From IMG/VR virus record IMGVR_UViG_3300036770_007267, positions 1 through 45,299 of that record: a stretch of 45,299 nt of DNA; one strand, given 5' to 3'. A program made the position numbers and the translations under genes. The notes below the pieces were generated by a model. That model had not been told where the DNA came from. It searched no databases and was given only the letters and a program-made list of their open reading frames with translations. The number at the start of each line of letters is the position of its first letter. Position 1 is the stretch's first letter. Below are positions 33,721-43,115 of this stretch, one piece after another. The stretch comes from a virus.

Positions 33721-35076
33721 ATGAAAAGTTTTAAAGAATTTTTATCTATTAAAAATAGCATCATAAAAGAAGAGAAAAATCAAGATTCTCAAAAAGATTG
33801 GAAGAAAGAGTTTATTAAATTAGAAAAAGGATTTGTTCCTCCTTCTAACTTAAAGCCAATTATATTAGCTTTTGGAGAAAGCGGCAACATATCAGTCATG
33901 AACGACACATCTAAAGAAATTAATATGCCTAAAAAATCTTTATTTTTAACTGGCGGTTCTGTTCGTGATTTCTTGCAAAACAAAACTCCAAAAAACTATA
34001 ACCTAATAACGAATGCAACTCCTGAACAAGTTGAATTAATTTTACAAAATGCGGGCTTTCAAGATTTTGATGACTCGGATGACAATAATAAAACGTTTCA
34101 TAGAAACGGAGATTCTGTTGTCGCGAATGTAAAAGGAGATAAATTCGAAATTGAGACTCTTAGAAATATGTCTGGAGAATATACCGATAATATCGAAGAA
34201 GATGCTAAAAGAAGAGATCTAACTATAAATTCTATGTACATAGAATTATCAAAAGATGGAGAAAATAATAAATTATACGATCCCACTAAAAAAGGCTGGT
34301 ATGATGTTAGTCATGGCAACATAAAGTGTGTAGACAAGCCAGAGAATTCTTTTAGAAATGATAAATTGAGAATGCTTAGAACAATAAGATTTTATTCTCA
34401 ATATGGAAAAGGAGAATTAGATAAAGAAATAAGATCCGCAATTTCTGAACTTAAGTCAGAAATAAATGAAATTCCTTATCAAGAAATAAGAGAAGAATTC
34501 TTAAAAGGATTGGTTCATCCTGATATAGATCCAAGAAAGTATCTTCAAAATTATATAAAATTAGGAATGATAGAAAAAGTATTCCCAGATGTGGAACTGA
34601 ATATGGAAGTTCCGCCTGATTTTTCAAATAAAAAAGATAAAATACTCGCTCTTGCTTGGATTTTGCAAAATAATCCTATCGAAGAAGTAAGAAAGGCCTT
34701 ATCTTCAACAATAAAAATAAAAGACAAAGAAGAAAAAACAGGATGGTCTGGCCAAGAAAGAAACGCAGTTGTTCTTTTACTAAAGCTAAAAGATTTTAAT
34801 TTAGATGAAATTGATGATCTTTTAGAAATGAAAAAATTTGCAGGATTATCCGAAGAACAAATAAGAAACTGGGTTGAGTTGTTTAATGTTGAAGGAAAAT
34901 CTCCAAGACCACACTGGTCAAAACAAGTGAAAAGCTTTGCTAAATTTTCGCCTAAAACAGAAGACTTACTGAGCTGGAACTCAGATGAAATTGGCGAAAC
35001 AAGTCCTTTGATTAGAAGAAAACTCTTAAAAGACTTAAATAAAAATAAATTAAAACAAATGTTTAAAAATTTATAA
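33721..35076 (+). CDS. CCA-adding/poly(A) polymerase-like protein with mutated catalytic DxD, 451 aa
   Basis: Class II nucleotidyltransferase architecture is visible: GGSVRD (78-83), motif region KNYNLITNATPEQ (91-103), RRDLTINSM (164-172), LYDPTKKGWYDV and RNDKLRMLRTIRF (about 214-226). In active enzymes the second block has DxD (KDxDLxT). Here both Asp are Asn (N92, N94), so metal-dependent catalysis is probably lost. The N-terminus MKSFKEFLSIKNSIIKE/E looks like a capsid-targeting signal. The C-terminal half is helical, as in the tRNA- or RNA-binding region of these enzymes. A role as an RNA-binding protein, decoy or regulator of CCA addition is inferred. The phage tRNAs here lack encoded CCA. 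Confidence 0.82.
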   Translation: MKSFKEFLSIKNSIIKEEKNQDSQKDWKKEFIKLEKGFVPPSNLKPIILAFGESGNISVMNDTSKEINMPKKSLFLTGGSVRDFLQNKTPKNYNLITNATPEQVELILQNAGFQDFDDSDDNNKTFHRNGDSVVANVKGDKFEIETLRNMSGEYTDNIEEDAKRRDLTINSMYIELSKDGENNKLYDPTKKGWYDVSHGNIKCVDKPENSFRNDKLRMLRTIRFYSQYGKGELDKEIRSAISELKSEINEIPYQEIREEFLKGLVHPDIDPRKYLQNYIKLGMIEKVFPDVELNMEVPPDFSNKKDKILALAWILQNNPIEEVRKALSSTIKIKDKEEKTGWSGQERNAVVLLLKLKDFNLDEIDDLLEMKKFAGLSEEQIRNWVELFNVEGKSPRPHWSKQVKSFAKFSPKTEDLLSWNSDEIGETSPLIRRKLLKDLNKNKLKQMFKNL

Positions 35077-38731: not shown

Positions 38732-39082
38732 GGGCGCGTACTGGTATCGATGTAGTGATAGGAGATACTGGTGGCACGTCGAGGTTGGTCAGCAGGCCTC
38801 GTTAAAAGCAGACCAAAGCCTTAATCGGCACAAATAGTTACGCAATGGCTGCTTGAGAAAGCAACCACGAATTTAGGAAGCCACGCGGGAAGCGTCCGAA
38901 AATTCGTTGTAAAATCCTGCTGGCATTGGGCTGGGCAACTTAGCCTAATGTGAGAAAATAGGTTGAAAGACTCAGAGACCTTTGTTCGTTGTGGTCAATG
39001 AAGTCTATTGAACAACGAAACAAACGTGTAGAAACCATTTCAAATACGCTCACAGACAAGGGTTCGAATCCCTTCGCGTCCA
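38732..39082 (+). ncRNA. ssrA: Phage-encoded tmRNA (transfer-messenger RNA), tag GTNSYAMAA
   Basis: The acceptor stem pairs GGGCGCG (38732-38738) with CGCGTCC (39075-39081), discriminator A. The 3' T arm AAGGG-TTCGAAT-CCCTT and the 5' D-analogue (ACTGGTATCGA) are typical. After the conserved TTAATC the resume codon GGC begins at 38827, giving tag GTNSYAMAA and a TGA stop (38854-38856). The tag ends in AMAA, close to the ALAA that ClpX recognises in bacterial tags. tmRNA with SmpB frees stalled ribosomes. No SmpB gene is seen in the window, so host SmpB would be needed. It is transcribed from a strong TATAAT promoter. Confidence 0.95.
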
Positions 39083-42851: not shown

Positions 42852-42879
42852 TTGATTTTTTACTATATTATGATAGAAT
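42852..42879 (+). promoter_or_regulatory. Promoter for the tRNA-Asn/Ser transcript
   Basis: TTGATT (42852-42857), a 16-nt spacer and TAGAAT (42874-42879) preceded by TGA (extended -10) form a good sigma70-type promoter. The predicted start, 7-9 nt downstream, coincides with the tRNA-Asn 5' end at 42888. This supports transcription of the split tRNA-Asn locus. Confidence 0.68.
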
Positions 42880-42887
42880 GTTTTCAT

Positions 42888-43023
42888 TGGCGAATAGCTC
42901 AACGGTAGAGCAAGCGGCTGTATAAAGCCACTGAATTGAAGCCCAAAAGGCTGGAAATTATTGGGTTCAAATCCCAACGGTGGATTAACCGCTAGGTTAC
43001 AGGTTCAAATCCTGTTTCGCCAG
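42888..43023 (+). tRNA. tRNA-Asn(GUU) split by a 64-nt insert in the anticodon loop
   Basis: Removing 42921-42984 leaves a standard 72-nt tRNA: acceptor TGGCGAA/TTCGCCA, D arm GCTC-AACGGTA-GAGC, anticodon stem AGCGG/CCGCT, loop CTGTTAA (GTT), T arm ACAGG-TTCAAAT-CCTGT, discriminator G, no CCA. The junction could also be one base later. The insert contains a second T-arm-like hairpin (TTGGG-TTCAAAT-CCCAA, 42961-42977) and other small hairpins. At 64 nt it is too short for a group I intron. It may be an unusual intron, a scar of tRNA recombination, or a pseudogene. Confidence 0.8.
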
Positions 43024-43028
43024 TTAAA

Positions 43029-43115
43029 GGAAGAATGGCAGAGTGGACTAATGCATCTGATTACTAATCAGAAGAGACCTAAAAATCTCCGTGGGTTCGA
43101 ATCCTACTTCTTCCG
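43029..43115 (+). tRNA. tRNA-Ser with anticodon ACU
   Basis: Acceptor GGAAGAA/TTCTTCC, anticodon stem TCTGA/TCAGA, loop TTACTAA (anticodon ACT), a long variable arm (GAGA...TCTC) typical of Ser tRNAs, T arm GTGGG-TTCGAAT-CCTAC, discriminator G, no CCA. Ser tRNAs for AGY codons normally carry GCU; here position 34 is A. It is 5 nt downstream of tRNA-Asn and co-transcribed. Confidence 0.88.

Follow-up and report, generated by a model that had tools for sequence, protein, structure and literature searches.

A tRNA-like insert between U35 and U36 of a phage tRNA-Asn gene and its possible excision by tRNA end-processing enzymes

The textbook introns of bacterial and phage tRNA genes are group I ribozymes, of which a compact member is about 200 nt long, and a phage tRNA gene carrying a far shorter insert raises the question of whether, and by what means, that insert is removed. 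Such a gene lies in the stretch of DNA analysed here (hereafter the window, 45,299 nucleotides, positions 1 to 45,299 of IMG/VR record IMGVR_UViG_3300036770_007267), a 45-kb virus fragment which encodes phage baseplate proteins, three further tRNA genes, a tmRNA and a CCA-adding enzyme. At positions 42888-43023, a tRNA-Asn(GUU) contains 64 extra nucleotides, which split the anticodon between U35 and U36 (Table 1). The Rfam tRNA model (RF00005) spans the whole of this region with 56.3 bits, its alignment bridging a 67-nt insertion, and ARAGORN misses the gene when introns are disallowed and, when they are allowed, reports a tRNA-Asn(gtt) in which base 35 is followed by a 64-nt insert. After in silico joining of the flanks, ARAGORN identifies a tRNA-Asn(gtt), with a 7-nt loop and a GUU anticodon, in the window and in 28 other insert-bearing genes (29/29). 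The first-pass annotation, which had described faultless tRNA-Asn flanks around a 64-nt insert in the anticodon loop, was therefore correct, and the junction can now be placed exactly: the exon ends are CTGT and TAA, and the insert starts with ATAAAG and ends with GGAT. A shift by one T would also allow a G34/U35 junction, and U35/U36 was chosen because the inserts of relatives begin or end with different letters.

Interruption of the anticodon loop is also known from group I introns (RF00028) in the tRNA genes of bacteria and phages. The insert had been judged too short to be one, in agreement with its 64 nt and with the absence of any RF00028 match to it; the same model does recover one in another tRNA gene of the related phage G013 (L486:143-328, on the contig of relative L086; 45.6 bits, E 1.3e-10).

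A strong promoter had been claimed at the 5' end of the gene. The site exists, with an extended -10 element, and a TATAAT-like box also occurs just upstream of the tRNA in relatives L028, L050 and L086; the case for a promoter is only moderate (a score of 9/12, as one of 6 sites found where 2.3 are expected). The tRNA-Asn and the adjacent tRNA-Ser are probably co-transcribed. The window also carries a phage-encoded tmRNA (38732-39082) with the tag GTNSYAMAA, identical to that in relative L050.

Table 1. Features of the window in and around the interrupted tRNA-Asn gene, with the CCA-adding enzyme.
Feature	Position	Strand	Basis
CCA-adding enzyme (tRNA nucleotidyltransferase)	33721..35076	+	phrog_2244, E 2.4e-36; PF01743, 76.5 bits
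Promoter-like site, extended -10, about 8 nt upstream of tRNA-Asn	42852..42879	+	9/12 match; TATAAT-like box in relatives
tRNA-Asn(GUU) 5' half, positions 1-35	42888..42921	+	RF00005; ARAGORN with introns; joined flanks
64-nt tRNA-like insert (class C putative intron), between U35 and U36	42922..42985	+	Site shared with 46 other phage contigs; covariation with four relatives
Leader of 5 nt, AUAAA (AYAAA in 5/5 class C inserts)	42922..42926	+	Alignment; tRNA numbering
Acceptor-like 5' strand, G1 + CCACTG; G1/A72 mismatch kept in 5/5 class C inserts	42927..42933	+	Covariation; numbering
Internal hairpin arm in place of D and anticodon arms, AATT GA AGCC CAAAA GGCT GGA AATT	42934..42959	+	Fold; covariation
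T-arm of the insert, TTGGG-TTCAAAT-CCCAA	42961..42977	+	Fold; shuffles; covariation; T-arm finder
Acceptor-like 3' strand CGGTGG, A72, U73; end 13 nt past T-loop	42978..42985	+	Ruler
tRNA-Asn 3' half, U36 to discriminator base, CCA not encoded	42986..43023	+	RF00005; ARAGORN; joined flanks
tRNA-Ser	43029..43115	+	Asn-Ser order kept in relative L050

The insert had been noted for a second T-arm, and this hairpin is real (none of 200 dinucleotide shuffles of the insert yielded an equally good motif), but the description was an understatement, since an acceptor-like stem and a hairpin resembling an anticodon arm are also present. A 6-bp stem (CCACTG/CGGTGG) directly adjoins and closes the T-arm, and the resulting stack of 5 + 6 bp plus the G1/A72 mismatch, with a 7-nt T-loop, gives the roughly 12 layers of T-stem and acceptor expected of a mascRNA-like substrate of RNase P and RNase Z. 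At its 3' side, the exon starts directly after base 73 of the insert, and at its 5' side the exon does not end at base 1, as 5 nt separate U35 from G1. Taken together with its relatives, the predicted fold shows the insert to be a conserved D-armless mini-tRNA, consisting of an acceptor-like stem and a T-arm. A possible tRNA-Tyr composed of the 5' exon and the start of the insert was dropped, because its acceptor strands do not pair.

This type of insert (class C) is shared with four relatives (L028, L046, L050 and L086), and an additional scan for the class returned no members beyond these. In the alignment of the five inserts, standard pairs occupy 94.6% of the 93 pair cells, against 21-52% in slid controls, and five pairs have changed on both sides, a number reached in 3 of 500 shuffles, with at least one such pair in each of the four helices. 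The class C insert has thus been kept under selection for structure. L050 retains the neighbouring tRNA-Ser and the next gene, and in L046 and L086 the surroundings differ, a hairpin with T's behind it coming directly after the tRNA. The 204-kb contig of L050 (G012) encodes 15 tRNAs for 15 different amino acids, and its interrupted gene is the sole tRNA-Asn. The predicted minimum-energy fold of all five class C precursors is an exon-intron pairing, 2-6 kcal/mol below the cloverleaf with mini-tRNA; in this alternative fold (window 42912-42998 and the four relatives), the anticodon strands of the exons pair with the acceptor strands of the insert, and the splice sites stand in hairpin loops.

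In order to look for other inserts at the same position, viral contigs were scanned for any insert of 27-87 nt at the U35/U36 site, with the content of the insert unconstrained and the flanks fixed as CTGT and TAA, so that the scan reports this exact junction and cannot detect inserts one base to either side. True inserts were found in 46 other phage contigs; with the window included, they amount to 26 distinct inserts in 17 sequence groups, with less than about 70% similarity between groups. Six hits were set aside on inspection, five as tandem tRNAs (L067, L070, L074, L087 and L094) and one as a chance hit (L082). One bacterial contig, from an Elusimicrobia MAG (L239), has an insert at the same site. 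An exact 21-mer of the window insert had no match in the viral contigs, and BLAST of the insert-bearing tRNAs against annotated phages gave no match at E 1e-5; relaxing the threshold to E 10 brought up Lak and Citrobacter phage Ci1. The search for homologous inserts in other phages, which had been suggested at the outset, thus shows that the locus is no one-off. Similar inserts at one exact position in unrelated phages point to a tRNA splicing route not yet described.

The inserts fall into three layouts, from 43 to 79 nt, whose only common features are a T-arm and an acceptor stem: in all 29 analysed inserts, a T-arm (3-5 bp, with a 7-nt loop of T-loop type) is closed by an acceptor-like stem. 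Shuffled sequences hardly ever contain this combination. Class A inserts (43-75 nt) start flush at tRNA position 1 and end after position 76, class B inserts have a leader hairpin of about 25-32 nt and end after position 74, and class C, that of the window, has the 5-nt AYAAA leader and ends after position 73; the insert of L034 is flush and runs from position 1 to 73. Class B inserts also occur in tRNA-Thr, tRNA-Ala and tRNA-Lys of L065 and L135. With an automatic T-arm search that had no information on the splice site, we measured a distance from the T-loop to the 3' splice site of 13, 14 or 16 nt in 29/29 inserts (13 in the window), compared with about 7% of shuffled inserts. These three lengths of the ruler correspond to tRNA positions 73, 74 and 76, at which the 3' ends of tRNAs are generated or completed.

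The most complete insert is that of L012 (class A), where an entire tRNA-Gly(UCC) (L012:2158-2232; 64.4 bits on its own), flush from base 1 to CCA, is nested between U35 and U36 of tRNA-Asn and is the sole tRNA-Gly found on its 138-kb contig. The L078 insert is a degenerate tRNA-Gly-like form, and the remaining class A inserts are progressively reduced, the 3 nt past base 73 not being CCA in most cases. The 1-72 pair is paired in L012 and L078 and mismatched in the reduced class A inserts, in L034 and in class C. The inserts probably originated as whole tRNA genes in the anticodon loop, which would later have lost all but the parts needed for excision. The first-pass annotation had raised the possibility of a tRNA recombination site, which is half right: it may hold for the origin, given the tRNA-Gly of L012 at the same place and a tRNA insertion that may be ancestral.

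Introns in phage tRNAs had been reported before, so that the suggestion of a new type has to be narrowed. The tRNAs of Lak megaphages carry 'enigmatic' introns, one of which, in a tRNA-Thr, 'may encode a tRNA', and the main text of that study gives neither a mechanism nor a ruler (Devoto et al. 2019, PMC6784885); in the open-licence literature, the Lak papers were the only ones retrieved on phage tRNA introns. Lak megaphage A2 (MK250019.1), being outside the original scan, served as an out-of-sample test. In each of its interrupted genes, those for tRNA-Gly, tRNA-Thr and tRNA-Asn, the insert ends 14 nt past the T-loop (3/3), which places the Lak introns in class B, and its tRNA-Asn insert occupies the same U35/U36 site as that of the window. 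The window insert shares with them the location in the anticodon loop, the T-arm with acceptor-like stem and the fixed T-loop distance, and differs in layout, with a 5-nt leader, a 13-nt ruler and an extra internal arm instead of the long 5' leader hairpin and the 14-nt ruler of the Lak inserts. While phage tRNA introns were already known, the ruler, the shared site and the classes appear to be new.

A further likeness comes from the best Rfam match of the window insert, the mascRNA/menRNA family (RF01684), at a sub-threshold 18 bits against a cut-off of 42.5 (E 0.072). Like the insert, mascRNA is a D-armless tRNA-like unit within a longer transcript, and the two align over the full 56 positions, so that bases 1 and 72 coincide. 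RNase P and RNase Z generate the ends of mascRNA and so release it. It is mammalian, however, and its flanks are not rejoined, unlike those proposed for the window, so that the likeness is one of functional analogy, not of kinship.

RNase Z cuts pre-tRNAs after base 73, and the minimal substrate of RNase P and RNase Z is a T-loop on about 12 stacked base pairs. Because of the ruler positions, this minimal-substrate stack and the likeness to mascRNA, we propose, with an even chance of being right, that the window encodes a working tRNA-Asn, whose tRNA-like intron is cut out by the tRNA end-processing enzymes RNase Z and RNase P and whose halves are sealed by an RNA ligase. The 3' cut would be made by RNase Z, or by another enzyme measuring from the T-loop. 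RNase P would make the 5' cut in the flush class; in the window class, owing to the 5-nt leader, this cut would call for RNase P together with trimming, or for a different endonuclease. With the remaining cloverleaf keeping the tRNA-Asn halves together, a 3'-OH/5'-P RNA ligase, encoded by either the phage or its host, would then join them. The 3' end of the joined tRNA-Asn would be completed by the CCA-adding enzyme of the phage, which could act on tRNAs that lack CCA. Removal of a small insert had already been envisaged, and it is well supported by the recurrent exact site, the intact exons, the conserved structure and the ruler, that is, from sequence only. We put forward more tentatively, as possible rather than probable, the wider proposal that splicing can dispense with both splicing endonuclease and ribozyme, a minimal-tRNA intron being excised by ordinary tRNA end-processing enzymes and the halves religated.

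The proposal does not fit all classes equally well. It explains both cuts for the flush, CCA-bearing inserts of L012 and L078, and only the 3' cut for the window, which needs a second 5' activity because the AYAAA leader precedes base 1. In general, RNase P alone would give no exact 5' exon where there is a leader (5 nt in class C, about 25-32 nt in class B), and plain RNase Z on class A would leave 3 extra nt, since the end lies 3 nt past base 73. As for the sealing step, RNA ligase genes are common in phages with an insert, but among contigs of 80 kb or more they were not significantly enriched (9/14 with an insert, versus 7/16 controls; Fisher p 0.30), and RtcB was found in 1/28 of the first contig set versus 1/16 controls. 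The three large class C relatives do encode RNA ligases (Rnl2 in G001, Rnl1 and Rnl2 in G012, Rnl1 in G013), the window itself being a 45-kb fragment; none of Rnl1, Rnl2 and RtcB is present in several insert-bearing contigs longer than 100 kb, where sealing would have to rely on a ligase of the host.

Among the other explanations, the one that survives best, although unlikely, is that the insert is a very small new self-splicing or self-cleaving ribozyme, with the T-loop as a merely structural motif. The strict conservation of site and structure, the failure to find a splicing endonuclease and the conserved alternative fold predicted for class C, in which hairpin loops expose both splice sites, would suit such a ribozyme; the three very different layouts, sharing only T-arm and acceptor stem, the complete ordinary tRNA-Gly of L012 and the lack of a match to group I or any other ribozyme family argue against it. 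We also consider it unlikely, and rank it next, that the insert is retained and that the RNA serves as a decoy, or as a tRNA armoured against anticodon nucleases. The insert does sit at the target of anticodon nucleases, among them the colicin E5 family, whose targets are GUN anticodons, yet a split anticodon cannot decode, the exons are faultless in 29/29 genes, and G012, in a set with one tRNA per amino acid, has no tRNA-Asn other than the interrupted gene. A third reading, which we hold to be improbable, gives the nested tRNA-like RNA the role of principal product, with the tRNA-Asn halves as mere flanks, as the complete and sole tRNA-Gly of L012 might suggest; in other phages, however, it is the inserts that are degenerate (no D arm, no anticodon, a mismatched 1-72 pair and mostly no CCA), and the exons that are intact.

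Archaeal tRNA introns with a bulge-helix-bulge, which the tRNA splicing endonuclease cuts in archaea and eukaryotes, are also small, and some interrupt tRNA-Asn at the same spot. An insert of this kind is nevertheless very improbable here, because no bulge-helix-bulge was apparent at the splice sites when the folds were judged by inspection, the splicing endonuclease domain (PF01974) was found in none of 23 contigs (the genome of the window being a fragment), and the tRNAs and the tmRNA of the phage belong to the bacterial type. That the gene is broken, by a one-off rearrangement or an assembly error, as had also been considered, has nothing but the interruption itself in its favour and is hardly credible, being refuted by the 46 other contigs, with 17 groups at one site, and by compensatory changes across independent contigs.

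If the excision of the insert by end-processing enzymes is confirmed, several consequences follow. An intron could arise from a tRNA dropped into another tRNA, complete nested tRNAs, such as the tRNA-Gly within tRNA-Asn of L012, would yield two tRNAs per gene, and phage RNA ligases, usually viewed solely as repair enzymes against anticodon nucleases, would gain a new role. The inserts form a widespread small kind, too short for group I and with no splicing endonuclease found, and their signature (T-loop ruler, tRNA-like fold and fixed site) turns the 'enigmatic' introns into a directly testable mechanism.

A generic insert scan over all isotypes also revealed, among the matches listed, other classes that are not tRNA-like. 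In a second small class (about 35-50 nt), which interrupts the anticodon stem in phage tRNAs of many isotypes, a hairpin is followed by ACAGCAA or ACTGCAA, with no T-arm (L110, L156, L163, L164, L165, L203 and L012:5-122), and several tRNAs per phage can be affected. Citrobacter phage Ci1, an isolated member of the Straboviridae, has two tRNAs with an insert of this ACAGCAA type (L434:2995-3229, corresponding to OR515478.1:77084-77318), namely a tRNA-Lys(CTT) according to ARAGORN and a gene annotated as tRNA-Pseudo-AAC, and offers a culturable test system for such inserts. A third class (about 50-65 nt), ending in GTTACTT, lies near the 5' side of the anticodon stem in L100, L116, L143 and L161, with several inserts within L116.
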